In this document: positions 2,433 through 26,500 of the stretch, piece by piece
Layout: each line of letters opens with the position of its first letter
How positions within the stretch are numbered: the stretch's first letter is position 1
NCBI GenBank assembly: GCA_905221615.1
Contig: CAJNDT010001890.1
Location: 112,102 to 176,101 of the forward strand
Direction: 5' to 3'
DNA length: 64,000 nucleotides
DNA from: Symbiodinium sp. CCMP2592
Lineage: Eukaryota; Sar; Dinophyceae; Suessiales; Symbiodiniaceae
Position numbers and translations under genes: made by a program
Notes under the pieces: generated by a model
Seen by the model: only the letters and a program-made list of their open reading frames with translations
Told to the model about the DNA's origin: nothing
Database searches by the model: none

Positions 2433-2928
2433 GTAGGGTTGGGCTTTAGGGTTTAGGGTTACTTTAGGCTTGGAGTCCAGAGGAGGGTTGTTTAGGGTCG
2501 GGGTTTAGAGTTTAGTCCAGGGATCCCTGACTGAAACCTCACTTACACTTCCAGCACTTGCTTGCACGACAAGCCAGTCACTGCACAGCGTGGCCTTTTC
2601 CAAAGTCGTACCCAACCCCCTTACAGCCCTTACAGGAATCCAGAATGCAACCCTAAAAAGGCTTCGGCAAGACAACTAAGATATCAGCAAAAGGTAAGTA
2701 AGATACCGATTTGGGCTTTCATTTGGCCCTTAACCTATCACAACCAATCCCGAGGCTGACACACTCACACATTTTCTCGCTGCCTGTTGCTTGCACTTCC
2801 TGACTTGTAATTTTCTAACACATCGGATGTGTCTCTGTGATATGCAGGCAGTCTCAGTCTTGCATTCTGTGTAAGAATTATCAGCCCATACAGTGGTTGT
2901 CCTGCTATCCTATCAACTGTAGGACAGA

Positions 2929-2952
2929 GGACTGCAAGACTGAGGACTGCAA
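2929..2952 (-). repeat. CAGTC minirepeat array, 3' of gene G
   Basis: On the minus strand: CAGTCCTCAGTCTTGCAGTC, units of 7 and 8 nt. It starts 7 nt after the stop codon of gene G. Confidence 0.9.
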
Positions 2953-2959
2953 CGAATTA

Positions 2960-3238
2960 TTAGGTCATCAAATCGACCCACTCTGCGTATGCACGAACTC
3001 TGCTTTTGAACACGTACCACTGACGCTCCCAGGTACGTTTCGAAACGCCGCTCACGTAGACGCGTGGTGTAACGGGTGGATCCCCCGGAGGGGTAGACTG
3101 CATGTCCTTGTTGAGCAACAAGAGCTTCGCACGCTGGTACTCCTCGGATTTCTTCATGCTTGCAACCACCCTGACTCGTTTGAGGACTCTCTCAAAGTCT
3201 GTTAGTACTCGCCGGTCCGGAGAGATGTCCCTGTCCAT
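2960..3238 (-). CDS. Gene G: small basic protein of unknown function, 92 aa
   Basis: ATG at 3238, stop TAA at 2960-2962. The 92-residue product is Arg/Lys-rich and predicted helical in the first half (DFERVLKRVRVVASMKKSEE) with a C-terminal Trp/Tyr-rich part (RTWERQWYVFKSRVRAYAEW). No family recognised. The gene is bracketed: a CAGTC array ends 4 nt upstream of the ATG (3243-3267) and another begins 7 nt after the stop (2929-2952). The upstream array is in frame with the ORF (SCSLAVA-M), so a longer N-terminus is possible; I chose the ATG because the same array-then-ATG arrangement is seen at gene F. It lies at the left end of the minus-strand cluster. Confidence 0.55.
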   Translation of the reverse strand: MDRDISPDRRVLTDFERVLKRVRVVASMKKSEEYQRAKLLLLNKDMQSTPPGDPPVTPRVYVSGVSKRTWERQWYVFKSRVRAYAEWVDLMT

Positions 3239-3242
3239 TGCC

Positions 3243-3267
3243 ACTGCAAGACTGCAGGACTGAGGAC
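3243..3267 (-). repeat. CAGTC minirepeat array, 5' of gene G
   Basis: Minus strand reads CAGTCCTGCAGTCTTGCAGT, three octamer-type units ending 4 nt before the gene G ATG. Confidence 0.9.
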
Positions 3268-3470
3268 GGCTAGTTTGTGCTGTCAGAGGCCAAAAACTGC
3301 GACAACACTCAGTGTGAAACAACTTCTGTGCGACAATGGAGGAAAAAACTACTACTATTGACTACTGTTACTGTTCAGGGTTGGCTGCCCCTTAAGGTAG
3401 GCCTCATGCACAGTCTAGCAGTCTTGCTGTTCCATAAGAAGCCCCAGCTACATGTGTCTGTATTTATAAT

Positions 3471-3495
3471 ATACATATATATATATATATATCTC
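3471..3495. repeat. (AT)n microsatellite
   Basis: Simple AT run; nothing else recognisable in 3300-3600. Confidence 0.85.
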
Positions 3496-3606
3496 TAGGA
3501 TAATCCTATAATATTACAGGACTAAGCTTAAACAAGACCGTTAGGCTGCATAAGAGGCCTTTCGAAGGCTGCCGGGAGCAATCCGACCTTTTTGAGTGCC
3601 TGGCAC

Positions 3607-4360
3607 GTACAGTCTACCAGTCTTGCAGTCCTTAGTAAGCACCCCTAAGAATGGTTATTAGGTCCTTCAACTTAATATAGAAGGACTGGAAGACTGTTAG
3701 ACTGTAAATTAAGAGTCTGCCTGCAAAGAAGCTTGTCAAGGCCATGTACAGTCTACCAGTCCTGCAGTCCTCAGTAAGCACCCCCATTATAGGTATAGGT
3801 CCCAAAATTAGACTAGTATGGGTGGACTGCACGACTGTTAGACTGTAACTTAGGGATTAAGGGTTTAGGTCTAAGAGTCTCCAAGAGGCTCCCTGCCAAG
3901 AGACCTTTTGAGGCCATGTACAGTCTACCAGTCCTGCAGTCCTCAGTAAGCACCCCTAGTATAGGTATAGGTCCCAAAATTAGAATAGTATGGGTGGACT
4001 GCACGACTGTTAGACTGTAACTTAGGGATTAAGGGTTTAGAGTCTAAGAGTCTCCAAGAGGCTCCCTGCCAAGAGACCTTTTGAGGCCCTGTGCAGTCTA
4101 TCAGTCTTGCAGTCCTCAGTAAGCACCCCTATTTTATAGATCTTATAGCATAGGCCCCAAAATTAGAATAATATGGGTGGACTGCGAGACTGATAGACTG
4201 TAAAGAAGTCTTTAAGAGGCTCCCTGCAAAGAGACCTTTTGAGGCCCTGTACAGTACAGCAGTCTTGCAGTCCTCAGTAGGCACCCCTATGTTATCGATA
4301 TAGGTCCCCATAATTAAACTAGTATTGGTGGACTGCAAGACTGTTGGACTGTAAAACTAA
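3607..4360. repeat. Tandem array of foldback units with CAGTC-type terminal repeats
   Basis: Five units begin with (G)TACAGTCTACCAGTCYTGCAG or a variant at 3607, 3745, 3918, 4091 and 4249 (spacing 138, 173, 173, 158 bp). Each contains a foldback of about 100 bp: left arm CAGTCTACCAGTCCTGCAGT, right arm GGACTGCACGACTGTTAGACTG, centre TAGGTATAGGTCCC. Thus the CAGTC minirepeat serves here as the terminal inverted repeat of a MITE-like element. Between foldbacks is a shared spacer with AAGAGTCTCCAAGAGGCTCC. Short minus-strand ORFs inside the array are by-products of the repeat. Confidence 0.9.
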
Positions 4361-4606
4361 GAGGCTCAGTAGGGCTTCACAAACTCTTCTTCGACACTCA
4401 CTGAAGCACTTCAAGCCCTGCAAGCTGCTACGAAAAAGCCAAAAGCCACTAGTAGTGGCAGCTGAAGACCTCTCAGGCCCATAGTGCAAGGCCCGTAAGG
4501 CAAGTCTGCAGTTTTGCAGACTTTTGGGAGGCTTGCCTCTAGGAAAGCATCCTTCAATGTCCACCCTTGGACGAAAACCGCTGAACACATGTGCCAACTT
4601 AGGCAC
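4361..4606 (-). CDS. Doubtful ORF next to the foldback array
   Basis: An open minus-strand frame of about 80 codons (AHVFSGFRPRVDIEGCF near its start) runs into a CAGTC array and a foldback at its 3' end. Composition is plausible for protein but there is no good ATG, no splice evidence and no recognised domain. Confidence 0.2.
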
Positions 4607-4677
4607 GCAACAGTACCATGGAAGCCTTGTAAGCTTGTAAGGTTAGCTTGAGGCTCGGTAACTCAGGCCAAAACCGC

Positions 4678-4776
4678 AGTCTACAGTCTTGCAGTCCTCA
4701 GTACAACCCCTATTTTATAGTATGTTATGGGTCCCCTAGTAGAATAATGTGGTGGACTGCAGGACTGCTAGACTGC
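4678..4776. repeat. Foldback with CAGTC-type arms
   Basis: Left AGTCTACAGTCTTGCAGTCCTC and right GGTGGACTGCAGGACTGCTAGAC are inverted; same family as 3607-4360. Confidence 0.8.
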
Positions 4777-4846
4777 TGAACCTGGAGCTCCGAAGCCACA
4801 GCCTTCACACCCGGGAGTCTCATGTAGAGACTTTCAAAACCCCGGA

Positions 4847-4968
4847 CAGTCCTCAGTCCTGCAGTTTCCATATAGTACATACAACTACATATACATATAT
4901 ATATATATATATATTATGTACTATTTAAGAACATATGGGCCCCTTGTAAACTGCAGGACTGAAGACTG
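4847..4968. repeat. Foldback with CAGTC-type arms and (AT)n centre
   Basis: Arms CAGTCCTCAGTCCTGCAGTT / AACTGCAGGACTGAAGACTG (4949-4968) enclose a second inverted pair, ATAGTACATA / TATGTACTAT, around a TA microsatellite. Confidence 0.8.
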
Positions 4969-5000
4969 GTTAACTAAGAAGCCCAGCTCACACCAAAGAG

Positions 5001-5076
5001 CCTCTCACTCCGGCTGCTGTGGCTGCTGGCCTGTGCGTGGCCGCTGGCGGCCGAGCTGGAGGCCGACCTTGGCGCA
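5001..5076 (+). CDS. Possible exon encoding a hydrophobic leader-like stretch
   Basis: The open segment reads LSLRLLWLLACAWPLAAELE and ends exactly at a consensus donor (GCGCA|GTAAGT, GT at 5077-5078). It resembles a signal sequence but no ATG is visible in frame, so it would be an internal or second exon. No partner exon was identified. 5080-5470 shows telomere-like and AT-rich DNA without a clear gene. Confidence 0.25.
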
Positions 5077-5474
5077 GTAAGTTTAGACTAAGGGTTTTAA
5101 TTTAGGGTGTAGGGTTTTGGGGTTTTAGGCCAAAGAGCTTCTCAGTGAGAGGTGCTTTAGACTTGAATAGTGCATAGTGGGGTGTCTCGAAAAGGTCGGT
5201 GTCTTACAAAGGTGCCGGGGTCTTGAATCCTATGGTTTGCAAGACGCACACTCAGAACGACAAATGCAGCAGTGCAGATTGTTTTTGCAATCAAGATGAA
5301 GCGCAGCTCCGAACAGCTTATTGCTGACTCGAGTGTCTTGTATCAGCTTGCAGACAAGGCACAAAATGCTTGGCATACAAAGATTGATGAAACACTGAAT
5401 GAATCTGGACTCTAAACTGAAAAGTTAGTTTGTGCTATCCTTATGACTCATTACTGGAAACACCAAGCTTGCCT

Positions 5475-5496
5475 GACTGCAGGACTGCAAGACTGC
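5475..5496 (-). repeat. CAGTC minirepeat array, 3' of gene E
   Basis: Minus strand GCAGTCTTGCAGTCCTGCAG, starting 4 nt after the gene E stop codon. Confidence 0.9.
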
Positions 5497-5499
5497 CAC

Positions 5500-8193
5500 T
5501 CACAACTTGGCAATGGAATCCTTTGAAATCCTGGCCTTGCGTTTCATGACTGCCTGAGGCATCATGCCTTTCAGCTTGTTGGCCTGATCATCGTATTCCA
5601 AACAAAACAGCACATCGAATTGTGACAAAGAGTTCAGGGCCACAAAACTGGACAGTTTCGCATGCGGCACGACTGGTGGGGGGAACTTCATATGCGGGTC
5701 CTCTGGGGCCTCCTCGACACTGGGTTTCAAGCACGCCGGCTCCAATGCAAGGATCTTCCACTCCACGTTGTTGCCATTGACTGTGTTCTCGCAGGAATGC
5801 AGGTGGATCGAGGGCTTCGGGAGGCCTGCCACTAACAAGGCATTCAAGATATCCTTGATTGCCCCACCCTTGTTCGAAAACTGCTGAACACTGGGTGGCA
5901 AATTCTTGCCGGCTTTGGGTCGAAGCAGCACCTGTGAATCCTCGGTCAATTTGTAAGCATAAACAGCACCTTCCGAACTGCTGATCAGCTCCGAAGCCTC
6001 CCGCCCCGTCTTGAAAAATCCATGGATCTGGAACTGCGCTCCTTCAAGAATGCAGTCTGTGAGGCCCTTGACATACAAGTCACCACGGGAGTTCACCCAG
6101 AACTCATGGGTTGTCAGGCCTGGCACCTGGCATTTCCCCATATGCTCGAGGTCTGAGGACTGCAAGACTGACGACAAGACTGTCTCGGCAGTGTTGTCCT
6201 GCTGCAACCTGGGTCACAGCACATGCACAAACACTTTTACACTGTTTGAAGCAAAGGATCAATCAACAAACAATGCCAGCAAGGGACACTCCCACCTCTG
6301 TCTCGGAAGCACGCTTAGCACGGATCACCTCTTGGGGATTGAACTCCTGGTTGTGTTTCTCGAAGAGCTGGCTCCACCCAAGGCCTTTCCAAACCTCACT
6401 GTCAGGAAGCAACACCTCTCCACATGACTTAGCTTTGGTGATGGTTTCCCGAAGCCAGTGCAGCTCGTTGTTTCCAGTGGGCTGGGTGAGCTCAAACAGA
6501 TCCAACTTCAGGCTTGGGGGACTGCTGTTCTGCAAGACTGGCCGAGACAGTAGCGAGGGTGGAAGTGCAACAGGACCGTACTCATTCCTGGCAATGGCAG
6601 CTTTGACATGCTCAGTGAACACTTCCTCCACATTCGAGACAATCTGATCCTTGACCTGTGCATTGCCAGCCCATGCGATCCCAACATAGGCGAACCTGGG
6701 GAAAGTGCCATTCTTCACAGCATTCATGTTGGCAACTGCAAGACTGAGCTCAGCATCGTAGAGCGACTCATCGCGTACCAACACCGTGTGCTTGTTTGTC
6801 AGCTTCGTGCCCTTCACAAGGGATGAGATCACCTCTGCCAGAAAGCCTGCCCCAGAGTACCACTGCTTGCCTCAATGCCAAAAAAACATTGACACAATCA
6901 TGTGAAACTTGATCAATTATTATTAAGACTGACACACTGTACCAACCCCACAGTAGAAATTCTGCCCTGGCACGCTCAAGGTCTTGATCACCGTTTGTTT
7001 TGCCACCCGTCACAAACGACATGTCCTTCGCGAAGTTTTTCATGGACTGTCTCGGGAAACAGCTCACCAGTCCTGGAATGGCTTTCCTTTTCAGCAAGAC
7101 TGAGGACTGAAACACATTCGTGTCTGCAGCTGCTGAAACGACAACCCATAGCTCAACTCCAAGTGTTCGCTCATCACTGTACATCGACTCGTGATCAAAC
7201 AGTGCAGTGGCCTTCATCAGCTTGATCTCAGCAACACTTTCAATCTCGGACTTCCAGACTGCTTGGTGGGCAGCCACCTTGTCCTCGCGCTCAGCTTTGG
7301 TAAGCTTTCCCAGTCCGAACGCAACCTGGTTGGGTGGAATGATCAGGTAGACTGCAAGACTGCAGGACTGCTGGAGCTCCGAAGCCATGTGACCCACCAT
7401 AGCCGTCACACATGATGATGCAGCGGCACCCAACATGGGAATGTTGATCACAGTGATGACTGGAATCTGCTTGACATCCTGCATCAAACGACTGGCAAGT
7501 GTCCTGTGTGTCGCATGTTCGAAAGCCTGCCCCACTCCCAATGTCTTGCTGGCATTCACCTGATAGTAGATCGAGTGCTCACCCCATGCACTTTCCACCC
7601 CCTCTGCAATGGACTTCTGGTACTCGGCTTCGGCTGCCACTGTCTGCACCATGTGTCGTTGGAAAGCCACACGATGGCCTCGCATCTCATCCTGCTCTCT
7701 CTTGAGGGACCTTGCAAGGTTTGTCAGACAGCGCACTGCCTCCTGAGCAGCTTCATCCTCCACCAGGTCAGAGGACTGCAAGACTGCAAGACTGTTGCTG
7801 GCCTCTTCTTGCTGCATCCGGAGCCCCAAATCGGTCAAGCTGAAGTCTGGCCTCAGGGCTGCCACTTCCGGGAAGAGCTTCTGGTCCAAGTGTCCCAGTC
7901 GCCAATGGGACATCATCTTGTGGTACTCGTCCGGACTCATATCCTTCATCATCTGGTCCTTAAAGTGCACCATGACACAGGCCATCAGGTAGACTTGGGA
8001 CTCTCTGCCAGAATCACGGAACCCTGCACAGATGGATGACTGATGAATTGGGGGTGGCTGCTGCCTGTCGACATACTCCTGGATCTTGCCATTCCACTTA
8101 GCCTGCAGTCTCTGCAACATCTCCTCGATCTTTTCCCAAGAGAACTTCACAATCTCATGCCAGACCTTGCTCTGAGTTCATAGCTAAATGTGT

Positions 8194-8258
<65 letters not shown>

Positions 8259-8844
8259 ATAGTAGTAGTACTAGTAATGGTAGTGGAAGTCGGTTGTAGT
8301 CGTTCTAGTAGTAGTGGCTCCGAAATACAAAGGTTAGAATGGGACTGAAACCAAAATCAAAATGGATATCTCAACACTGCAAATGACTCCAGCCCTGAAA
8401 CAGGACAATACTTGAATGCTTATCCAGGAACTGGGTTACCGGTAGGCGAGACCTTCAGGTTGCCACTCAGCTGCTTGGTCGGGTTAAAGAACCTGGGCTG
8501 TTGTTTGGATTGGTTTCTGGGACTTTTAACACTTAAACTCAGAGACTCAAGTGCACACACCAAACAAACAAATATAAATTCCACATGGACCAGGAAACGG
8601 CTGTGCAATGCACGACAAGGGAACAGCAGTGTGATGCGGCGCTTCTGTACCCCACACCAACTTGAGCATCCGACGAACATGTGCTGGTGCCAAATCATAA
8701 ACTTGAATGGCAGCAATCTCATCGGGGTTTATGCGGGACTTCGAAACAGTGCTCTTGTTGTGTCGGTTGATCGCCTCTGTCATCATGTCCTTCCGAAGTT
8801 TGCGGGATCCTGCTGCCACCTTCGCTGCCACAATCTTGTCGAAC
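5500..8844 (-). CDS. Gene E: large protein of unknown function, at least 880 aa, four exons
   Basis: Exons 8844-8658, 8165-6974, 6870-6315 and 6208-5500 join in frame (2,643 nt including the stop). Introns: 8657-8166 (GT-AG, contains an AGT microsatellite), 6973-6871 (GT-AG, 103 nt, join LERKQWYSG), 6314-6209 (best fit GC-AG, 106 nt, join RAKLQQDN). A 5' exon (MESLRIKTDAS, ATG 9041) is likely but its junction phase was not resolved. No domain recognised: the N-terminal part is helical and charged, the middle has a hydrophobic stretch (VKQIPVITVINIPMLGAAAS), the C-terminal part is mixed alpha/beta. CAGTC arrays are translated in frame at five or more places (LQSS, SLAV, QSCSLAV, FQSS). A further array follows the stop. 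Confidence 0.6.
8192..8280. repeat. (AGT)n microsatellite in an intron of gene E
   Basis: Mostly perfect AGT trinucleotide repeat lying inside the 492-nt intron 8657-8166. Confidence 0.95.
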
Positions 8845-8884
8845 CTTAAGGTCCACAAGGAACAACAGCATTGTCACAAAGAGC

Positions 8885-8913
8885 AACACACACACACACA
8901 CACACACACACAC
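8885..8913. repeat. (AC)n microsatellite next to a splice donor
   Basis: Adjoins a minus-strand GTAAGTGTGTGTG donor (GT at 8917-8916) of the likely first intron of gene E. Confidence 0.9.
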
Positions 8914-8917
8914 TTAC

Positions 8918-9041
8918 CACAAGAGCAGTCATTCACACTTCTGCATATATCTGGTGACTTAGACCCAGACAGGAAGTGCATGTTAATGATCGAGGGCCTG
9001 CTTCTTGCACTTGCATCCGTCTTAATGCGCAAACTCTCCAT
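8918..9041 (-). CDS. Probable first exon of gene E
   Basis: ATG at 9041; reads MESLRIKTDASARSRPSIIN and ends at a GTAAG donor (8917). The ATG directly follows a CAGTC array (9042-9076) that fills the 65-nt gap to the stop codon of gene D2 (9107). Joining to the exon at 8844 through the obvious acceptor (CTTAAG|G) is out of phase by one, so either the donor is an upstream GA/GT or the exon belongs to something else. Confidence 0.35.
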
Positions 9042-9076
9042 GGACTGCTGCTCGACTGAGGACTGAGGACTGCAGG
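9042..9076 (-). repeat. CAGTC minirepeat array between gene D2 stop and gene E start
   Basis: Minus strand CTGCAGTCCTCAGTCCTCAG followed by TCGAGCAGCAGTCC and immediately ATG. Together with 5-10 nt gaps elsewhere it suggests the arrays mark gene boundaries. Confidence 0.9.
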
Positions 9077-9106
9077 TGCCGAAGATACCTGCAGTCCACA
9101 TCTCAT

Positions 9107-9832
9107 TCAAGCAGGTTGAAACAGGAACTCAAACTGGAAATTAAATGTTTTCTCACATGTGTCCATCATGTCCCAGTTGCAGAGACAGCTCATCAATCGG
9201 CCCGCCACATCCTTCTTGACATGGTCCAGGACTGTTGGACTGTTCAACCAATCAAGCTTCATCGCAGCATAGGCGAGAAGATGGCATGCCATGGTAACAG
9301 TCGTCCCAATGCTGACTGCAACACTGAAGGCCTGGATCAATGACCCCGGTGCAGGGCTAGACGATTTCCACGCAGTTGGCCAATCAAACAGAATCTCCAG
9401 CGGGAACTTGTGTGTCTCACACCCCATCCCTGTCATGAACTTCTGTATGCAGTCCCGCACTCCATGGAGTTGTGGGGCCCCCTTGACATGCGAGGCTTCA
9501 TGACCGCCAAGCTGCCACAGTCGCAAAGGGAACCGCTTCAACATCTTGCTACTGGCCTCCTGGAGGTCTGCAGGACTGGGGACTGAGGACTGGAAGGAGG
9601 TCACCCCAGCTCCAGCCACTGCTTCACAGCTAGCCAAGAGCTGCTCCAGATTTGCCTGGTGAGCCGACCTCTCCCCATCGGAGCCTAGCTTCTGACCCAA
9701 CCATTCACAAACATCTGTGAATTGTGGCTGACCATCTGCACTCTTCACATCCAGCTCTGCTTTGAGGACAGCCATAGCCTCACCATACAAGGTGTAAAGT
9801 TGTTGCTGATTCGCAACAGGTTCGGGGTCCAT
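9107..9832 (-). CDS. Gene D2: unknown protein, at least 241 aa
   Basis: Open frame from ATG 9832 (MDPEPVANQQQLYTLYGEAM) to TGA at 9107. The frame is also open upstream to about 9985, through a CAGTC array and a TTTTTAG acceptor-like site 2 nt before the ATG. An upstream coding piece (10000-10100; IEVDTEVIQMPVPMLWKQ) can be joined in frame using a GTTTGTGAG donor and this acceptor, so the ATG may be internal. No domain recognised; one internal array is translated as SFQSSVPSP. Gene D lies upstream and may be the same gene; the frame changes between 10597 and 9833 prevent a firm model. Confidence 0.5.
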   Translation of the reverse strand: MDPEPVANQQQLYTLYGEAMAVLKAELDVKSADGQPQFTDVCEWLGQKLGSDGERSAHQANLEQLLASCEAVAGAGVTSFQSSVPSPADLQEASSKMLKRFPLRLWQLGGHEASHVKGAPQLHGVRDCIQKFMTGMGCETHKFPLEILFDWPTAWKSSSPAPGSLIQAFSVAVSIGTTVTMACHLLAYAAMKLDWLNSPTVLDHVKKDVAGRLMSCLCNWDMMDTCEKTFNFQFEFLFQPA

Positions 9833-9842
9833 GGCTAAAAAG

Positions 9843-9866
9843 ACAGCAGGACTGCAGGACTGCAGG
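9843..9866 (-). repeat. CAGTC minirepeat array upstream of gene D2
   Basis: Minus strand CTGCAGTCCTGCAGTCCTGC leading into TGTCTTTTTAG, i.e. it forms the pyrimidine tract of a likely 3' splice acceptor. Confidence 0.9.
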
Positions 9867-9869
9867 TGC

Positions 9870-10597
9870 TTGTCCTCCAAAATCTTCATTAGCCAAGAGC
9901 CACACACACACAACATGAGAGAGGAGCTTGCATCGACAAGGAAGCATAACACAGTCACTGCAGTGACTTCATACATAACACTCACAAACGCATTTTTTGT
10001 CGGGCTTCACTGACTATCGATCCTTGCTTCCACAACATGGGCACGGGCATCTGGATTACTTCTGTGTCCACCTCAATCCCCGGAGCCAGTTGAGGCCTCG
10101 GCTGAAACTGATATTACACCAGTCCGGTTCAACTGCTGAGTGGAGTCGACATTCTTTAACTATTTGAAATTCTTCAAGTGCAAGGGACAGTTGAAACCAC
10201 ACAGTATGCAAAGACTCCATTACAGCCTCATCTTCACAATAGATCGGTCCTCTGGCATGCACTGTGCACACTCTCTGAAGATCACTGACAGCTGATTCCT
10301 GAACTTGGCTACACAAGACCAATGTGTTCAAAAAGCAGAGAGCAGTCACTGCTACAATTCCTCATCATTCAGATCAAGGACAGTATCTAGCCACATAATG
10401 CAAGGATTCAGGCCAGTGCTTCTTCCGAACCCCCTTAAAATTGTGACAGTAGCATCTGGATGTTCCACCCAGCCACATCAGACTGAGGACTGAGGAATGC
10501 AACAAGGTTGTCGACACGAAATGCCCCAGAATCAAAACTCTTCCCCAGATGTTCCAACAGCCACTTAGGACTGAGGACTGAGGACTGCAAAACACAT
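9870..10597 (-). pseudogene. Coding-like stretch with frame changes between genes D and D2
   Basis: Several minus-strand segments are clearly protein-like but lie in different frames: LLEHLGKSFDSGAFRVDNLV (about 10560-10500), TVTILRGFGRSTGLNPCIMW (about 10450-10380), then AVSDLQRVCTVHARGPIYCE and EEFQIVKECRLHSAVEPDW (10300-10130), then IEVDTEVIQMPVPMLWKQ (10090-10030). The first change of frame happens at a CAGTC array (10480-10498). Either there are tiny or non-canonical introns, or single-base indels have broken this part. Confidence 0.4.
10568..10590 (-). repeat. CAGTC minirepeat array, 3' of gene D
   Basis: Minus strand GCAGTCCTCAGTCCTCAGTC, 7 nt after the TGA of gene D (10598-10600). 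Confidence 0.9.
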
Positions 10598-11722
10598 TCA
10601 GCCCTCAACCTGCTTCTTGAAGGCTTGGATGATCTGGACTGTGGTCATGTCCGCATCTGCAATACTGTAGAACAGGCGCTCATTCTTCTCACTCCAATGG
10701 CACTGGGGAACGTACCTGTAGAACATCTCTCTGCGCAAATCCCACAGCTTGGCTGCATCCTGGTTCCTGTTCCTGTGTCGACCAGCAAAAGTCACCTTGT
10801 CTGGCCACTCCACGTTCACATTCTTGTGGAGCACAATCTCCAGTGCATCTCGGTCTGACTTGGTCGGGCTGATCTCGGACTGAGGACTGAGGACTGCTGG
10901 CTTGGCCGGACTGCCCTGGGAATCCTTGGGGTCCTGCTTGTCATCCTCCTCACCCTTCTGGCTCTCCATGGGGTCCTGCTTGTCATCCTCCTCACCCTTC
11001 TGGCTCTCCATGGGGTCCTGCTTGTCATCCTGGTTGCCATCCTTCTTGTCATCGTCCTGGTCCTTCATGGGCTCGAGGGCTGCAGTGTCTGCCTCCTTCT
11101 CATGCATCTCCTGGTCGATGTCCTGCAAACAGTGAACCAACAACACTCATAGGCTGGGGAGACTATTAAGTGCAATAAAAGTTCCGTCCTTGCTTGCTTT
11201 GGAAACCGAAGCAGCAGGCCGTTTGAGACTGGCAGGCTTCTTCATGACACCCGACTTTGCCTTTGCCTTGCCTTTGGGCCAGCCCTTTTTCTTGGGAAGT
11301 GGCTGCTGCTGGACTGCGGACTCTGGGGCAGGGGTGAGAGGGTCAGTCTTGGCTTGGGTCTTGGCTTGGGCCTTGGCCTTGGCATCTGCTTTCTTCTGTG
11401 CTTTTGTCTGCACCAACTGGATCGGACTGCCTCCATCTGCTGTGCCTGCAGTAACATCCTCCACAGAAGCACTGGGAACTAGACCTGCCTTGTCTGCTGC
11501 GAGCTTCTCTCTACTTGTGATTGTGCCGAACAAGACCCGGGGCTTCACAGGCGACACCTTCTCACCAGTCAGTGGATCAGCCACCTTGTGCGGTAGCGCA
11601 GCTGGGGTGACATTCTCTTCCATCTGAATGTCTCCCTGTCCATCCTCGGGCCAGTCAATCGCATCACCTTCAGCATCGTCTTCTAGCATCGGGATAGAAG
11701 CAGCCATGAATCCTCCGAACAT
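10598..11722 (-). CDS. Gene D: Lys/Ala- and Asp-rich protein of unknown function, two exons
   Basis: Exon 1 11722-11189 starts at ATG (MFGGFMAASIPMLEDDAEGD); exon 2 11122-10598 starts DIDQEMHEKEAD. The 66-nt intron (11188-11123) fits best as GA-AG: AAG|GAC ... TTTGCAG|GAC, with the tetramer GGAC repeated at both ends. Product about 352 aa. The end of exon 1 is an Ala/Lys basic tract (KAKAQAKTQAKT, GWPKGKAKAKS), exon 2 begins with an acidic repeat (EDDKQDPMESQKGE, 2-3 copies of a 42-bp unit at 10930-11035). The C-terminal 100 residues (YVPQCHWSEKNERLFYSIAD) look globular. Low-complexity charged linkers suggest nucleic-acid or chromatin contact, which is inference. Confidence 0.55.
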
Positions 11723-11746
11723 TGTGGTGAGACAGCTCAGACAAAG

Positions 11747-11760
11747 GACTGCAAGACTGG
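11747..11760 (-). repeat. CAGTC minirepeat, 5' of gene D
   Basis: Minus strand CCAGTCTTGCAGTCC, ending 24 nt before the gene D ATG. Confidence 0.85.
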
Positions 11761-11947
11761 ACCACAGCTTGACCTTAACTGAATCTCAGCCAGAATGCAA
11801 TCATCATAATTCATATCAATGAGGCAGACAAGTTCAAGGCACTTTGCATGCAGGCACAGCACACAGACACAGGCAACAGTGCATTGCTCACTCCAGGGTC
11901 CAGTCCTTTTCCACGCACAAACAAATACTATGATGCCGAACACAAAA

Positions 11948-13234
11948 TCAGCAGCCTGCCCATGGATCATCCTCTGAAAGTCCACCGGGCAAAGACTCTG
12001 CTACACAGGAAGATCTTGCACTGGGCTTCTTCATGGCTTTCATGGCACACTTCCGCACTTTTGCTTTGGATTTGGACTTGGCTTTGGGCTTGGCTTTCAT
12101 CGCAGTCCGGGCTGCCGGCTTCTTCGAAGGAGCAGAAGTTCCAGACTCTCCAGCCTCTCCCCAGGGATCATCTTCGGGTTCTTCTTCATTGAAAAGGGCT
12201 CCGATCTGATCAGGTGTCAAATCTTCCCACCGCCGAGGAACATCAGCAGCAGGACTGAGGACTGCAGGACTGAGGACTGCAGAACTGACACCAGATGTAC
12301 TGCTTGGCAAAGGATGCTTTCTCTCCAGCAGACTGGGTTTTGCATCCGGAGCAAAACGAATCAACCAAGCAAGTACAATTGATTCACCCAGTGATGCAGG
12401 GTAAAGACCGCTTGCCTTCAGGTCTGCATTTCCAGTCTTCTTGGTTGCTCCACCCTTCTCCTTTTTCACATCCATCAATGGCAGGTGCTTCTCTTTGCAG
12501 GTGCATGGACTGTGCACAGCTTTTTTGAACCAGCAAGGACTGAAGACTGCATGACTGGGGTGCAAGCACAGGAACTTGTACCTTTTGCCATATGTAGGTC
12601 TCTCGGTCACAAAGGCACAGCGGTCAACAAGGAAGAACAGAGGACTGAGGACTGCATCCAGCGCTAAGATGTGTGCCTTCAGGTATGAGAACAGTGTCGA
12701 GCCCACTGGGTTCTCCAAACAAACATATACACCTCGTGCTGCTGCCAAGACAAACAGGAAGAACGACACCTCAGCCATGAAGTTCCCATGCCTGACAGTG
12801 GGATTGCCAGTGTCTCCTGCAAAGTTTTTCTTGGTGCGCTTGGTCTTACTTGAGCATGCCCAAGAAAAGCTGGAACAATCGGGTGCAATACACATCAGAC
12901 CAGCTTCCTTCAACCGCATGACCATCCGAATTGCTTGATGAAAACCGGTCTCTGACAAGACGTCCCCTTGCCCTGGGTTCATGTAGTCGAAACTCTCTGC
13001 ACTCAGCCCACGTGTTTCTGCCGCATTGACCAGTGTCTTGGAAAGACTGAAGACTTCCAAAACATGAAGATCACGAGGTCCCTGGCAAAACAGTTCAGAC
13101 TGGAGGATCCCAATGACTGTCAATCCGAAGATCTCCAGCCGACATGTCCGTGCAACTCCGGAGCCACTCTGCATCTTGGGGACACTGTTGAAGCGGACTG
13201 CCGGACTGCAGGACTGCCTCAAAACTCGAGCCAT
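11948..13234 (-). CDS. Gene C: DNA methyltransferase-like (class I, SAM-dependent) protein
   Basis: Single open frame, 428 aa from ATG 13234. Visible motifs: an SAM-binding-like start (LHVLEVFSLSKTLVNAA, residues ~53-69), a PC-like motif in IAPDCSSFSWACS (~116-128) and an ENP motif in GVYVCLENPVGSTLF (~167-181), the order of cytosine-C5-type or related N-methyltransferases. Similar methyltransferase-like domains are abundant in dinoflagellate genomes and some occur in their retroelements. The C-terminal third is disordered and basic (AMKAKPKAKSKSKAKVRK) with two acidic-DPW motifs (EDDPWGE, EDDPWAG) like those in gene B. Two CAGTC arrays are translated in the linker (VLSPAVLSP). Lack of a full target-recognition domain leaves the substrate open. 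It could be inactive. Confidence 0.6.
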   Translation of the reverse strand: MARVLRQSCSPAVRFNSVPKMQSGSGVARTCRLEIFGLTVIGILQSELFCQGPRDLHVLEVFSLSKTLVNAAETRGLSAESFDYMNPGQGDVLSETGFHQAIRMVMRLKEAGLMCIAPDCSSFSWACSSKTKRTKKNFAGDTGNPTVRHGNFMAEVSFFLFVLAAARGVYVCLENPVGSTLFSYLKAHILALDAVLSPLFFLVDRCAFVTERPTYGKRYKFLCLHPSHAVFSPCWFKKAVHSPCTCKEKHLPLMDVKKEKGGATKKTGNADLKASGLYPASLGESIVLAWLIRFAPDAKPSLLERKHPLPSSTSGVSSAVLSPAVLSPAADVPRRWEDLTPDQIGALFNEEEPEDDPWGEAGESGTSAPSKKPAARTAMKAKPKAKSKSKAKVRKCAMKAMKKPSARSSCVAESLPGGLSEDDPWAGC

Positions 13235-13382
13235 GAATTCAGAGTGTGTGACAGTCGATACTGACTCCCAACAACTGACTGAGTCTGATAACTGCTAACT
13301 ACCTGCTCCAACTTGGCAGCCATACTTTAATCCTCACCAGCAAAGTCACGCCCAATCTTCAGCTTTGCAACTGCAAGACTGC

Positions 13383-16053
13383 TCAGCGGTGAAACTTGGC
13401 CATCAGTTTCCAGCATGAGTTAGGCAAATATGGCAATTGTGCAAAGCCTTCTGGCTCTGGACTGAAAACTCTTGGTGCTTGTCTCATAAACTCCAAACTA
13501 TGCACATCATAGCGCCTCACAAAAACAATCCCTCTCAAAGCCTTGGCAGCTTCTGTCATGCCATACTTGTCTGCCAGGTCTGACAATTTTGTGAAAGTGT
13601 CAATCTGGACGCCAGACAGCTCAACTGCAGCATGAACACCACGTGGGATTTCGGGGAATACTGATGCAATCTGGGCCATGCTCGCAACCTTGACCGGGGG
13701 CTGGCTCAGGTTCAGGTCACGGGAGTACATTTTGACGCACACATAGACTGCTGTCCCATCCAAGCCCTCTTCCATCATCTCCCTGTGCTTCAAACACATC
13801 GTATCACCAGTGATCATCGTGAAACAGTGAGGAATTTCTGGAAGGTTTCCTGCTCGTGCAAGTGGATGCTTGTGACTTCTTTGCCTCAATGCATTGTACA
13901 AAGTTACCCCCATGGGCTGGAGCCAAGAATCGAAATCTCGAACTGCTGTCACATGTCTGGCAGAAATTTGTCCTGGTCGTTGAGCATGAGAACTGGTCTC
14001 CAAGCCTCAGTTGCATCAGGTTCTATCTGTTCGGGACAATCCTGCACACTGGCACACATGCTGTACCTAACTGCAGTCCTATTTGGCAGCAAGTAGCAGG
14101 ACTTGATATGTTGCAAAATCTCATCCGGAGTTTGCCAGCTTGCCTTCTTCTTCAGGTATGAATACACAACTGCAAAGAGCTGATCCAAGTCTTCATGGGT
14201 GTGGCCAACCATGAGCTGAAACAGAGTCACTGATTTGAAAATTTTGCGGCCCACCAGGTAAGACAGAAATCGCAGCACATACTGGTTCTTTGCCGACTTT
14301 GTGGTGTTGTCAGCAACTAGCACCAAATGAGATGGCCAAGACTGAGGACTGCAAGACTGCCATACCTGCTCCAAAGTCTGACACAGGACCTCCAAAAAAT
14401 AGTCCGATCCCCCAACAACTTGTGGCCCGGCCATATACAGGAAGGTGCCCCATCCATGTGCATATGCACCTGTGAATGTGACTGTTGGTCGTATCAATCC
14501 ATCCATCTCATGTGGCTGTTTGCGAAACTCCCACCGTGGCCATGCAAACTTGCTGTGATCCATGTCATCGATCATAACAGTGAGAACTGTTCCTGACTGC
14601 AAGGGCTGCTTGGACTGCTGCTTGGACTGAGGACTGCAAGACTGTGCTTGGACAGTCGAAGCCCATCTCAGAGACCAATACAGCAAACGATCTTGGTACT
14701 GATCCTTTTGATGCTGCCGCAACAATTTTGCAACCTCCAGCTTTCGACTCCATGACACTTTGGGGCTACGCAGCATCATCTGCAGGTCAAAGCATCGCTG
14801 GCACTGCTTGTGCTGACTCTTTTCACGCATGCGAATCATGTTGCTCCAGTGAGAATTCCACCTGCGTCGAAAGGTATCACAGCTGGGCATCTCTGCCCCA
14901 TAGTGTGCATGCAACTCAGTGAGGGCAGACCATTCAGCTTGAAACTGCCAGTACAAATCAGAAATCTGACATTTCTGAATGTAGCGCCGCTGCAGGCCAC
15001 CATAGACTGCAAGACTGGAGACTGTGAGGGGTGTGGACACGTGCCCGTAGAGAGTGTCCTGCCATGAATCTGAAACAAAGCAACAAGCACTCCTACATAT
15101 GCAAGCATTACTCACAAGAATTACTTTCAACAGGAGTCCTGATCCCACGGATCATCCACTGCAGCTTCATCATCTTCCGGCATACATTCTGCTACGGACT
15201 GGTGCAGCTCCCGGAAGAAGTGATCACACTTCAATGTTGCTGCGGCCTCCCGCTGTTGACTGCCCCACTTGGACCCACCAGCCACACCCTTCTTTCGCAT
15301 GTCCGGCTGTCCAGCTATGTATTTTCTCATTGTGCTCTGGCTGCATGCTAGCTTCTTGCAAAAATTACAGAAGCAAACCCGTGAGGATCCAATGTAGTAC
15401 TCGGTGCCCTTGCCAGTCCCATCACCATAAATGACCTGAAGTAGATGAATCCTTTCCTCTGTAGTGATACTCCAGAAGCTCTGGCACAAGTCTTGGAGAG
15501 ACTTCAAATGCAGCGCCCGGGGTGCACAACCATCAAGTTGACAGTTGCTTCGGGGACATTTCTGGGCCCATCGTAATCGAATCTTGTCTGGGTCCATTGC
15601 AGAAATCTCATAAGAGTTCGAATGGGCCTTCAAGGTGGACTCTGCCAGTAAGCGACTGCCTGCATCTAACGACACATGTCTTTTCGCACACTGGACTGAG
15701 GACTGAGGACTGCTGCAAGACTCCCCAATTCCATCCCATGGGTTGTCCTCATGTCGTTTCCTGCACTGGACTGAGGACTGAGGACTGGAACACTCCCCAA
15801 CCTCACCCCATGGGTTGTCCTCAGGGTCTTTCCCTTGCTGGACTGAGGACTGAGGACTGGAACACTTCTCAACCTCATCCCATGGGTTGTCCTCTTCTAC
15901 CACATATTTCCAGGGATCCTCGGATTGCTCACAGACTGGATTCTCAGCAGGAGGTGCATTCCAGGGATCAAAATCAGTGGGAACATCTTGCTCAACCACC
16001 CGCTGCTTCTTGGCGGGCTTGTTTTTGGGCCGCCTGACTCTAAGCTTGGGCAT
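13383..16053 (-). CDS. Gene B: DUF7869/DDE-transposase-like protein, frame-interrupted
   Basis: ATG 16053 (MPKLRVRRPKNKPAKK). Exon 1 runs to 15132, intron 15131-15070 (GT-AG, 62 nt), exon 2 from 15069. The basic N-terminus carries six DPW-type motifs (FDPW, EDPW, three EDNPW, DDPW), three of them in tandem modules with CAGTC arrays translated as SSPQSSVQ. Then a Cys/basic region (SSRVCFCNFCKKLACSQSTM) and a core with MIDDMDHSKFAWPRW, LVLVADNTTKSAKNQ and LMVGHTHEDLDQLF, giving candidate D, D and E/D residues as in the DUF7869 family. At about 13965 the frame shifts by one (LMLNDQDKF to AVRDFDSWLQPMGV) and continues to TGA 13383; after the stop a CAGTC array follows and protein-like sequence resumes in another frame (KLKIGRDFAGED). 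Transposition function is inference. Confidence 0.6.
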
Positions 16054-16162
16054 AATGCTACCCGATGACATAAAGTATCTTCGGAGTCTCTGTTGCCATG
16101 GAACAGCAGTGTCTAGATGTAGCAGGCAGACTCGACACCTCCTTTTTCTGCCTATCCACACC

Positions 16163-16195
16163 GAGCTGCACCACTGCAGGACTGCAGGACTGCGG
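16163..16195 (-). repeat. CAGTC minirepeat array between genes A and B
   Basis: Minus strand CGCAGTCCTGCAGTCCTGCAG then TGGTGCAG; a run of four acceptor-like CAGs about 110 nt upstream of the gene B ATG. Confidence 0.9.
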
Positions 16196-16226
16196 GTGCT
16201 CGAATTAAGAATTACAGTGCTGGGCT

Positions 16227-16802
16227 CTACTTTGAATTCCGACTTGCAACACCTGCAAGCTTCTCCTTCATGCGCTGCAGTCTCTTGGCTTTTCTAAAAG
16301 CTTTTAAATCTTTGGCTGCACGTTGCTTCTCTTGCCGAGCTTCCTCTCGAGCAACAGCAAGGGGATGTTGCTTCCACAAAGCTGCAATGTACTTCCAAGA
16401 AAAACCCCTACTTCGATAAGTAGAAAAGAACTTTGTTCGTTGCTGCCTGGGGGTCAACCCGCACATTGCTTCATCCAACAGAGTATCATTCAAAACTTCG
16501 TCGGAGTTATGCCTCCAGTGTGCTATCCATCTCTTTACTTTGCGCTTTTGGCAGTCCCACTTGCTCTTCTCCCGAACTTTGCTGACAAGTGTGTTAGGAT
16601 TCAGAGCAGGTGTGTCCTGAACACAAAGGCGATCACAGAAGGAGGCTGTCGGAGCTTTTGTTCCAATCATATGCGGCGGTGTGAAGTCTGTCAGCATCTG
16701 CATCATGCCACCGAACATTGCCTTGGCTGGGTAGATGGGCAAGGGGCTTACAGTTGGGTCAGGAACTACTTTCGGGGTTGGCTGGCCGGCCGGTGACGAC
16801 AT
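16227..16802 (-). CDS. Gene A: basic protein of unknown function, 191 aa
   Basis: ATG 16802 (MSSPAGQPTPKVVPDP), stop at 16227. The middle has a basic helical region (KSKWDCQKRKVKRWIAHWRH) followed by TPRQQRTKFFSTYRSRGFSW and a long Lys/Arg/Ala/Glu helix to the end. The composition suggests nucleic-acid binding; no family recognised. Its start codon and first seven codons lie inside the left arm of the 295-bp palindrome, so its 5' region is duplicated in inverse orientation. A GTGTTG donor-like site near the end leaves open that it is exon 1 of gene B. Confidence 0.5.
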   Translation of the reverse strand: MSSPAGQPTPKVVPDPTVSPLPIYPAKAMFGGMMQMLTDFTPPHMIGTKAPTASFCDRLCVQDTPALNPNTLVSKVREKSKWDCQKRKVKRWIAHWRHNSDEVLNDTLLDEAMCGLTPRQQRTKFFSTYRSRGFSWKYIAALWKQHPLAVAREEARQEKQRAAKDLKAFRKAKRLQRMKEKLAGVASRNSK

Positions 16803-17077
16803 CAGAGTCAGGCCTCAGATCCCGAAGCTCCCAAGGCCAGGCAGTCACCTCTAACGATTCGGGGATCTAGGCCTAGATCCCCGAATCGCTTCGGACCAGA
16901 TTGAACATCCCGAAGTGTTAGAGGTGACTGCCTGGCCTCTAGCACTTAGGGATGTTCAATCTGGTCCGAAGCGATTCGGGGATCTAGGCCTAGATCCCCG
17001 AATCGTTAGAGGTGACTGCCTGGCCTTGGGAGCTTCGGGATCTGAGGCCTGACTCTGATGTCGTCACCGGCCGGCCA
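16783..17077. repeat. Nested 295-bp palindrome at the head of the gene cluster
   Basis: Outer arms 16783-16888 and 16972-17077 are near-identical inverted copies (GGCCGGCCGGTGACGACATC ... mirrored). Within each arm end is a perfect 34-bp palindrome, 16855-16888 and 16972-17005 (CGATTCGGGGATCTAGG and its complement). The centre 16889-16971 is itself an inverted repeat (CTTCGGACCAGATTGAACAT / ATGTTCAATCTGGTCCGAAG) around a copy of TTAGAGGTGACTGCCTGGCC. The right arm carries a second ATGTCGTCACCGGCCGGC start on the plus strand that runs only 20 codons. Confidence 0.9.
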
Positions 17078-18460: not shown

Positions 18461-18463
18461 CAG

Positions 18464-18509
18464 GAAATCTTCAATGCTGTGGCTGCATGCGGCGTGCGCA
18501 GAGACCGGG
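18464..18509 (+). CDS. Small exon, unrecognised gene
   Basis: Flanked by CTTCTGCCAG| and |GTCTAG. Reads EIFNAVAACGVRRDR and leaves one base (G). The 39-nt exon candidate at 21022-21060 continues it in phase (GHFLPQFSRRCLR). Gene F would then sit in the intron between them. Product unknown. Confidence 0.35.
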
Positions 18510-18803
18510 GTCTAGAGTTAAAGTATTTGGTCTCTTGGCAGGTTTAATTTTCAAAGGGGCCGGGGGTTGTAGAGTTAAGGGTTTAATAAGGGTTTAGGGT
18601 TTTGGGGTTGTTGCAAGCATTCTTCCTACCAGTGGGGGCTTCAAGTGATGATGTTTCCCTAAGCCCTAAACCCTAAATAACCTTCAGGCAACCTATGGAA
18701 CCCAGGCAAATCTTCTGAACACAACCCTAGAACCCCTTCAATCCAAATCATGAACCCAAAACAGCTCTAAAGCTGTTAACCCCAGACCCTGAATCCGGAG
18801 TTT

Positions 18804-19172
18804 GCAATCTTCAACCGGAAGACTCAAGACCCACCCTCAACCCTAAACCCCAAATCCAGGTGCTCTGAGCAGTCATGCAGTCCTGCAGTATGCTTTGCAA
18901 TCCTCAACCGGAAGACTCAACACCCACCCTCAACCCTAAACCCCAAACCCAGGTGCTCTGGGCAGTCATGCAGTCCTGCAGTATGCTTTGCAATCCTCAA
19001 CCGGAAGACTCAACACCCACCCTCAACCCTAAACCCCAAACCCAGGTGCTCTGGGCAGTCATGCAGTCCTGCAGTATGCTTTGCAATCCTCAACCGGAAG
19101 ACTCAACACCCACCCTCAACCCTAAACCCCAAACCCAGGTGCTCTGGGCAGTCATGCAGTCCTGCAGTATGC
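18804..19172 (+). repeat. 93-bp tandem repeat containing telomere-like and CAGTC units
   Basis: Copies begin (AGGTGCTCTG) at 18858, 18951, 19044 and 19137, exactly 93 bp apart, with a partial copy before. Each unit has GCAGTCATGCAGTCCTGCAG, GCAATCCTCAACCGGAAGAC and CAACCCTAAACCCCAAACCC. Because 93 is 31 codons, all frames keep phase and an open frame runs through; I do not regard it as a gene. Confidence 0.95.
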
Positions 19173-19578
19173 CAGGGCCCCAGCCACCAGTGAGAGAGGC
19201 ACAAAAAACAGCCAAACAAAATCTTGCATTGTTGAGCCATTGTGGTACCGGACAGCAGGACTGCATGACAGTAACCAACATGAGAGTCTGCTTGCCACTG
19301 ATTGCTATCATTCATGGGACAGCAGGACTGCAAGACTGTAGGCACATGTGCATGCGATGTCAGGTCGACCACTGCAGTCCAGTACTTCTTCTGCATGCAC
19401 CGGAGTCAGGCCCGGACTTGCACTGCAGGGCTAGCACCTGGCACAGGACATGTGGAGATAAGGCTTGAAAGGGTTTGAAGATTTAGGGTCTAAGGAACAT
19501 AGTGGTTGGGGAGTTTTCGTGCAGAGGGATGCAGCTGACACCTTGGCATTGCAATGGGCATTGATGCTCAATATAGGT

Positions 19579-19600
19579 ACAGTCCTGCAGTCCTGCTGTC
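19579..19600 (+). repeat. CAGTC minirepeat array, 5' of gene F
   Basis: TACAGTCCTGCAGTCCTGCT followed by GTCGCC and ATG 19604. Same layout, on the opposite DNA strand, as at gene G and gene D2. Confidence 0.9.
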
Positions 19601-19603
19601 GCC

Positions 19604-20416
19604 ATGCCTAAACCCAAGACCATCAAGACCAAGTTGAAGAAGAAATGGGCGAGACTACCAGGAAATAAGGCTGCAGTTCAACAGAAGATGACCCAGTCCA
19701 AAAAGGTCGAGAACATTGCCTATGCTCGCACTTCCTCATTCGGGAAAAAGGTGCAAGGTTCCCGGGCAAGGCAAGTTTCGCAGTGCATTCAGGCTGCAGA
19801 AAAGCAAGGCATGCAGGTTCACTCGGCAATTGCAGAGGTCATTTCTGGATATGTCAAATACGACCAGCGAGCAACCCTCAAGCAGATCCTGGAGCGCAAA
19901 CTACCCGGCATGCCAGAGGAGAGGAAACGAACAGTCCATGTGTTTGTGGAGAGTGTCCGTGCTTTGGCGAGGAATGCAATGGTGGGTGAGGAGATCTATA
20001 AGCAGAGCAAGAAGAACAACATCAACATCATTCCTCAAGACTATCCGACATTGTTCAGTCACAGTGAGACTCCTACCGGTAATTTTATTCGAAAGTTGAT
20101 TTGTTCCCTACAAGAACTCGATCGAGACACACTCGTGTGGCGCCTTCAACAAGGTCGGGAGAACAAGGCCAAAACAACAACATTGAGGACTCAGTCAGGC
20201 AAGCCCAAAGTGAATGGAATCAAGAGCTACCTCGAGGATCTGCAACCATCCAAGAATGTGCAAAAGAAGATTGTGGCCCTGGGGAAGAAAAGAGATCGGG
20301 GTGACTTTGGATGGAGACCCATGGCAAACGAGGTTAGCAAGCTCCTGGGTATGAAGCAGTCCCTGCCACATGAGACTGTCCGTCGAATGTACAATGAGAT
20401 TCTTAACAAGAAATGA
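19604..20416 (+). CDS. Gene F: basic protein of unknown function, 270 aa
   Basis: Single exon, ATG 19604, TGA 20414-20416. Lys-rich N-terminus (MPKPKTIKTKLKKKWARLPG), then helical segments (SRARQVSQCIQAAEKQGMQV; RATLKQILERKLPGM; KRTVHVFVESVRALARNAMV), and a C-terminal charged region ending in KQSLPHETVRRMYNEILNKK. No domain recognised; composition suggests DNA or RNA binding. Bracketed by CAGTC arrays 3 nt upstream of the ATG and 7 nt after the stop. It is divergent from genes A-G across the palindrome, so it may be part of the same cluster. Confidence 0.65.
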   Translation: MPKPKTIKTKLKKKWARLPGNKAAVQQKMTQSKKVENIAYARTSSFGKKVQGSRARQVSQCIQAAEKQGMQVHSAIAEVISGYVKYDQRATLKQILERKLPGMPEERKRTVHVFVESVRALARNAMVGEEIYKQSKKNNINIIPQDYPTLFSHSETPTGNFIRKLICSLQELDRDTLVWRLQQGRENKAKTTTLRTQSGKPKVNGIKSYLEDLQPSKNVQKKIVALGKKRDRGDFGWRPMANEVSKLLGMKQSLPHETVRRMYNEILNKK

Positions 20417-20423
20417 ACATGTA

Positions 20424-20451
20424 CAGTCCCCAGTCTTCAGTCTTGCAGTCC
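20424..20451 (+). repeat. CAGTC minirepeat array, 3' of gene F
   Basis: CAGTCCCCAGTCTTCAGTCT followed by TGCAGTCC, four units, 7 nt after the stop codon. Confidence 0.9.
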
Positions 20452-21514: not shown

Positions 21515-21735
21515 GAGCCCTAAACCCTAAGCCCCTAAACCCTAAACCCCTAAACCCTAAACCCTACACCCTAAACCTTACTAAACCTTGAACCCCTAAA
21601 AAACCCTGAATCCTAAACCCCTAAAACCCTAAACCTTAAATACCCTAAACCCTAAAAAAAAACCCTAAACCCTAAGCCCCTAAAAAGCCCTCAACCCTAA
21701 ACCCCTAAAAAACCCTAAGCCCTAAACCCTATATC
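21515..21735. repeat. Interstitial CCCTAAA array, degenerate
   Basis: About 25 CCCTAAA/CCCCTAAA-type units with interruptions; opposite orientation to the arrays at 32.8 and 49.6 kb. Confidence 0.9.
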
Positions 21736-26400: not shown

Positions 26401-26500
26401 NNNNNNNNNNNNNNNNNNNNNNNNNNNNNNNNNNNNNNNNNNNNNNNNNNNNNNNNNNNNNNNNNNNNNNNNNNNNNNNNNNNNNNNNNNNNNNNNNNNN
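26401..26500. other. Assembly gap (100 N)
   Basis: Exactly 100 N, the usual placeholder for a gap of unknown length; order and orientation across it rest on the assembler. Confidence 0.99.

Follow-up and report, generated by a model that had tools for sequence, protein, structure and literature searches.

Short CAGTC arrays in a single orientation across a gene block of Symbiodinium sp. CCMP2592

What places the same short tandem unit, in one orientation only, inside and between the genes of a dinoflagellate locus? The question is raised by a window of 64,000 nt of Symbiodinium sp. CCMP2592 (contig CAJNDT010001890.1, positions 112,102 to 176,101), which carries arrays of the unit CAGTCYT(G), repeated in 7/8-nt steps. 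CAGTC cores at most 12 nt apart were joined into clusters, and two or more cores were called an array. The whole window holds 18 plus and 38 minus clusters; the first-pass annotation had noted more than 30 short-array sites at 2.9-20.5 kb, and 50 clusters (15 plus, 35 minus) lie in 2926-20451. Pairs of CAGTC at 7/8 nt number 89 on both strands of 1-26,400, compared to a mean of 0.2 (maximum 3) in 200 first-order Markov resamplings, and a single pair occurs in 26,501-64,000, beyond a 100-N assembly gap at 26401-26500. We tentatively read the arrays as a sense-strand recognition site in the RNA of a multigene, probably mobile, Symbiodinium element, a reading that may well prove wrong.

The orientation is uniform in the gene block at 5475-16192, where each of the 24 CAGTC arrays is oriented like the minus-strand genes. 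Sixteen of them lie within called exons, 11 being homology-backed and 5 supported by open reading frames (ORFs) only, and all 8 arrays outside called exons are also in sense, so that the count between 5,400 and 16,300 is 24 minus and 0 plus. The arrays had been described as strand-locked to transcription over the whole interval, which holds in the block (24/24 sense) but not at 2.8-5.0 kb, where arrays form opposed pairs (hairpin arms), nor at 18-26 kb, where they occur on both strands. ORF 15127-16071 contains 13 sense CAGTC cores and 1 antisense core. Stop avoidance alone was considered as an explanation of the strand lock and was rejected, because in-place inversion of the 16 coding arrays introduces a stop in 6 and leaves the frame open in 10, the independence of these ten being limited by the fact that three are tandem duplicates (15694-15859, minus strand), one per copy of a 72-nt tandem repeat according to the cluster list and the tandem-repeat search.

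The encoded proteins do not explain the arrays, and the excess is at the nucleotide level. Synonymous codons were shuffled in 2,000 trials, with protein and codon usage fixed, over nine stretches of homology-backed exon that total 5,562 nt; for the homology-backed exons 9832-9548, 9331-9113, and 3172-2963, CCMP2592 gene models are the sole backing. The nine stretches contain 51 sense CAGTC cores, compared to a shuffle mean of 14.5 (maximum 27), and 20 sense pairs at 7/8 nt, compared to a mean of 0.45 (maximum 5), neither observed value being reached in any of the 2,000 shuffles. Antisense cores are close to expectation (8 vs 5.8, with 386 of 2,000 shuffles reaching 8), and antisense pairs are absent. 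Since isolated sense cores show just a slight excess (20 vs 13.4, maximum 22 in 400 shuffles), the sense excess belongs to the arrays. CAGTC has the highest z among 5-mers in the homology-backed exons, and the arrayed cores use all three codon phases (8/11/12).

Nine arrays, all on the minus strand, were set against relatives (proteins with P numbers) in protein alignments A1-A3. Four of them are length-neutral (12643, 12253, 7350, and 7098), and the relative's peptide at these sites cannot carry the array. More specifically, QSCSLAV at 7350-7370 has the same length as QAPSVTM in P0047, QAPALMI in P0048, and ASCNLTI in P0041, and FQSSVLL at 7098-7109 stands at equal length to FGSSVLV (P0047) and FGSSVLL (P0048). 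AVLSP at 12643-12654 is equal in length to P0005, whose peptide is incompatible with the array, and the four-core AVLSPAVLSP at 12253-12279, in a poorly conserved, low-confidence tail, is equal in length to P0001. NSLAVLQS at 7774-7794 is one residue longer between anchors than P0047 and P0048. The array at 14340-14359, QSCSPQS, lies at the end of a helix and in a loop of the DUF7869 protein and differs by one or two residues from seven distant relatives, others differing more. Those at 12538-12557, in a stretch 9 residues longer than in P0005, P0006, and P0008, and at 14613-14644, QSCSPQSKQQS, lie in longer sequence, the latter in a DUF7869-protein linker of variable length that exceeds P0010, P0012, and P0020 by 4 residues and most others by 17-18. 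The ninth array compared, at 13196, is at the N-terminal end. In the models of proteins C and D, their six arrays map to loops, helix ends, or low-confidence stretches.

The arrays had also been described as bracketing genes, which stands in part on the stop side and is weaker elsewhere, as most arrays of the block (16/24) are exonic. Of the six minus-strand ORF stops, three are followed by an array within 10 nt: 5475-5495 is 4 nt past the stop at 5500, 10569-10587 is 10 nt past the stop at 10598, and 2930-2949, opposite a plus array at 2849-2859, is 10 nt past the stop at 2960, all three on the minus strand; for the other stops the distances are 34, 166, and 188 nt. When the block's 33 minus arrays were shifted circularly 20,000 times, an average of 0.16 of the six stops had an array that close, and three of six was reached with p 0.0004, a result that supports a downstream-of-stop association on few cases, the stops at 5500, 10598, and 16227 having no homologue backing. 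At the stop at 13383, CAGTCTTGCAGTT begins after 1 nt and was left out of the array count because it has one CAGTC core only. The plus-strand gene F was said to be flanked by plus arrays: the orientation is confirmed, and a four-core array (20424-20450, plus strand) begins 7 nt past its stop, and the upstream array (19580-19592, plus strand) ends 11 nt before its ATG. A 93-bp tandem repeat with four copies (18801-19172) contains a plus-strand array in each.

The ATGs before which the first-pass annotation placed arrays are doubtful as starts, and with them any association of arrays with starts. A unit at most 60 nt upstream was found for 7 of the 14 candidate starts inspected, and the frame runs open through the unit in all seven. 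Homology places the ATGs at 6727 and 13913 inside coding exons, since the relatives' proteins align straight through them. Likewise, the array at 6158-6182 (minus strand), upstream of the ATG at 6141, lies in an open frame continuous with this ATG (LQQDNTAETVLSSVLQSSDLEH-M), and LQQDNTAETVL is also present in P0045.

Beside the block, seven hairpins of ~95-125 nt (3600-4976, no strand assigned) have CAGTC arrays in opposite orientation as their arms, and part of them belong to a 172-nt tandem repeat. Over 2.85-4.97 kb, the eight nearest plus/minus array pairs are opposed across 53-98 nt. Folding of seven stretches as plus-strand RNA gave z values of -3.6 to -7.8, none of 200 shuffles being as stable, and the hairpins have the stable duplex of ~22 nt expected of microRNA or small interfering RNA precursors. 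They also have terminal inverted repeats: the arms are identical at 21-22 of 24 positions, ungapped, in five of nine copies, and out of register at the ends chosen in the other four. TA is present on both sides of three of the nine candidate copies, two of these three being tandem duplicates. All 22 block arrays compared, out of the 24 in the block, have 13-20 identical nt in common with the hairpin arms. At 4739-4798 (minus strand), arm and flank match the coding array at 7350-7370 over 60 nt at 77%, including 17 identical flank nt; the flank of this hairpin copy (4677-4775) shares TGGCTTCGGAGCTCCAG with the coding array. This match with its identical flank indicates that array-bearing exon sequence and hairpin have undergone exchange or share an origin.

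The genes concerned point to a mobile setting. Gene C (13383-16071, minus strand) encodes a DUF7869 protein (PF25273, E 1e-30, 106.9 bits against a Pfam gathering cut-off of 26); its exons 15040-14099 and 14006-13386 are backed by the S. natans DUF7869 protein P0010, which aligns through both, and 16071-15127 is an assumed first exon. The gene C model (mean pLDDT, the predicted local distance difference test, 72) resembles the transposase domains of Mos1 and SETMAR/Metnase, with 7 matches at E<=1e-3 and a TM-score of up to 0.5 over the target, and thus looks like a mariner/Mos1-like transposase fold. Gene D (11948-13174, minus strand) has a low-confidence model (pLDDT 57), for which C5-cytosine-methyltransferases fill nearly all of the best 50 rows of the structure search, with one match at E<=1e-3 and low TM-scores; a C5-methyltransferase is possible. 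Gene E (5500-8834, minus strand) is multi-exon, with relatives P0041-P0048 and an ORF-only part at 6207-5500; P0047 and P0048 span 8834-8586, 8171-6972, and 6868-6251 as a single protein. Gene or exon G (2960-3238, minus strand, 92 codons), whose stretch 3172-2963 is common to P0043, P0045, and P0046, matches the SLBP RNA-hairpin-binding domain weakly (E 6e-4, 20.2 bits, under the 27-bit Pfam cut-off). Its score against a human SLBP sequence was reached by 3 of 1,000 shuffles, the three proteins that carry the G exon match the domain at E 0.012-0.23, and none of the 4 matches (E up to 10) from a PDB sequence search is an SLBP chain. Gene F (19604-20416, plus strand) encodes a serine recombinase with a Resolvase N-terminal domain (Pfam E 2e-13) and a weak IS607 match far under the IS607 cut-off. 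Pfam scans of 20 ORFs found no reverse transcriptase.

Among named sequences, the proteins of the window are closest to those of Symbiodinium. ORF 11948-13234 (minus strand) has 98-99% matches to two proteins of Symbiodinium sp. CCMP2592, and ORF 6768-8120 (minus strand) 93-98% matches to three further ones; these five relatives, listed on contigs of five different lengths, would fit a multicopy element. In tblastn, 48 relatives gave 80 matches to the window, and those of the 15 proteins inspected include none outside 2.9-16.3 kb. A chimeric scaffold, with two organisms joined at the gap, was considered and rejected, since a ~100-bp palindromic repeat family is common to both sides (1748-1857 and about 30.9, 40.8, 41.4, and 50.6 kb) and makes a single genome likely. 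Our guess is that the drop in arrays beyond the gap reflects gene content. Other features of the window are a 295-bp near-perfect palindrome (95.6%) at 16783-17077, which overlaps the start of ORF 16227-16802 (minus strand), and many dispersed telomere-like CCCTAAA/CCCCTAAA units at 21518-21731 and 25-54 kb, also in a 7/8-nt mix, with 187 CCCTAAA on both strands of 25-54 kb. An ankyrin-repeat ORF (39244-40155, minus strand) has one sense CAGTC core and no array.

A pattern that is sense-only, exon-rich, often length-neutral, and blind to the protein is best read as recognition at the RNA level, the main rival being copying from MITE-like arms (MITE, miniature inverted-repeat transposable element). 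A protein could bind the putative RNA site, or a small RNA could pair with it, and the genes of the element would have gained array sites where the encoded protein tolerates them. The hairpins may supply the RNA that pairs, or may be derivative elements (MITEs) with the array unit in common, and binding might affect how the transcript is processed, whether silencing is avoided, or how the element is copied. In a more specific form, which we consider unlikely, the arrays would be a self-recognition tag: small RNAs from the hairpins, which an SLBP-like protein of the element itself may handle, would pair with the sense arrays in the messages of the element, marking these for protection, processing, or copying, while the coding sequence evolves in place to carry the tag. 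Several observations weigh against RNA recognition. All the evidence comes from one locus, and array counts overstate the number of independent events, as tandem repeats of 72, 93, and 172 nt contain arrays. In-place replacement is read from the relatives' proteins, not from DNA, and 2 of the 9 aligned arrays (12538 and 14613) sit in longer stretches. The sense bias of single cores is uneven, with 0 sense and 2 antisense in ORF 16227-16802 and 3 of each in ORF 11147-11722, and 1 of 21 published S. microadriaticum small RNAs contains CAGUC, without an array match (PMC3853145).

Spread at the DNA level is possible, if somewhat doubtful. The unit would then be the end-repeat of a Tc1/mariner-like MITE, a transposase-binding site, and gene-conversion or template-switch patches would copy hairpin arms into partly matching genes, antisense copies being selected out. 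The arms made of array units, the TA on both sides of 3 of the 9 copies, the mariner-like fold of gene C, and the unchanged length, which suits patch conversion, are all consistent with this, and the 17 nt of exon flank that recur beside a hairpin arm indicate that exchange at an array probably happened once. Nevertheless, that exchange could have gone either way, tandem duplication accounts for two of the three TA-flanked copies, and conversion alone should leave both orientations wherever they are stop-free, whereas 0 of 24 arrays are antisense. The same absence of a plus-strand arm in 5400-16300 and the single orientation, together with the length neutrality of 4 of the 9 aligned arrays, make it improbable that the arrays are remnants of inserted MITEs or introners with one arm left after excision or splicing, even if arm and array agree over 13-20 nt, two arrays are in longer stretches, and introners with terminal inverted repeats (TIRs) and 4-bp target-site duplications (TSDs) occur in S. 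microadriaticum (PMC9860276). Plain slippage of the 7/8-nt unit, retained where the frame is unbroken, has in its favour the tandem units, the longer stretch at 12538, the array-bearing local duplications, and 7-nt arrays of the CAGTC unit in bacterial and viral contigs, but slippage alters length and is strand-blind, and length-neutral sites such as FGSSVLL to FQSSVLL leave it with little probability. We give a similarly low chance to a transcript-processing signal, with tandem pyrimidine-rich CAGs as spliced-leader or splice acceptors or as 3'-end marks in a polycistronic block: arrays are near some stops and ORF starts, and the P0004 gene model joins an exon that starts with the array peptide QSCSPAV, but 16 of 24 arrays are exonic and no relict of the dinoflagellate spliced leader (DinoSL) is found in the window within 3 mismatches of the consensus. 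Least probable by far is selection for the encoded peptide QSCSPAV / QSSVLSP: QSCSP recurs in P0004, P0009, P0011, and P0029 (first 40 proteins), but arrays also occur outside exons, and peptide selection as a sufficient cause is refuted by the synonymous-codon shuffles and the codon phases.

Beyond this locus, the exact array pattern and protein scans gave no relatives in viral_contigs, and the array strings, in DNA or RNA form, gave no paper on the arrays in the open-licence literature. A looser pattern found at least 119 stretches in genome_contigs and 51 in viral_contigs. Of the 337 overlapping matches listed in these 170 loci, 313 consist purely of 7-nt steps, and we take these 7-nt arrays for unrelated heptamers. 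In the same matches, arrays of 3 or more cores within mechanical ORFs are 48 sense and 4 antisense, which is no evidence of a lock because an antisense run of three 7-nt units stops every frame; between ORFs, 31 are near a same-strand stop and 47 near an opposite-strand stop, with no sense preference. Several CAGTCCT/CAGTCTT heptamer arrays, some as opposed pairs, occur in each of the bacterial/viral contigs L065, L059, L001, L162, and L167.

A one-strand, often length-neutral, frame-blind motif in eukaryotic coding sequence suggests a driver that acts on nucleic acid, not on protein. Acting on RNA, it would make the arrays a self-tag by which a dinoflagellate mobile element marks itself; acting on DNA, it would give transposon end sequences a way to rewrite exons.

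DNA uptake sequences and HIP1-type motifs are single prokaryotic motifs that build up in coding sequence and are not known to be sense-strand-locked. They share with the Symbiodinium arrays that the motif gathers in coding sequence and alters amino acids at tolerant sites, whereas the arrays are tandem, sense-only, and from one locus. Retrotransposons that bear a DNA methyltransferase (DNMT) exist in dinoflagellates (PMC5890265) and resemble the present locus in the possible C5-methyltransferase in a mobile setting, again in Symbiodinium, but here the accompanying genes are a transposase-like DUF7869 gene and a serine recombinase gene. The hairpin copies at 3.6-4.97 kb, with their inverted arms, are similar to MITEs and introners (PMC9860276, PMC7789003). 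The coding arrays differ from these in having no second arm (no plus array in 5400-16300 opposes them), one orientation, and often a neutral length, and 11 of them lie in open exons alignable with relatives, which speaks against removal as introns. In the available portions of the literature found on heptamers, MITEs, and introners, length-neutral, sense-only coding arrays are not described. The claim of the first-pass annotation that no described element behaves in this way is nevertheless partly wrong, as the heptamers GGGAATC / GGGGA(T/C)T of Xanthomonas and Nostoc are strand-dependent at gene edges, lying preferentially 0-50 bp past stops on the coding strand; they are mostly intergenic (89-93% in two xanthomonads), G-rich, and quadruplex-forming (PMC4692102). 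The Symbiodinium arrays resemble these heptamers in that short tandem units of 7 nt recur at many sites and are placed by strand at gene edges, close to stops on the coding strand; unlike them, they are mostly coding in the block (16/24), mix 7- and 8-nt steps, and belong to a eukaryote.

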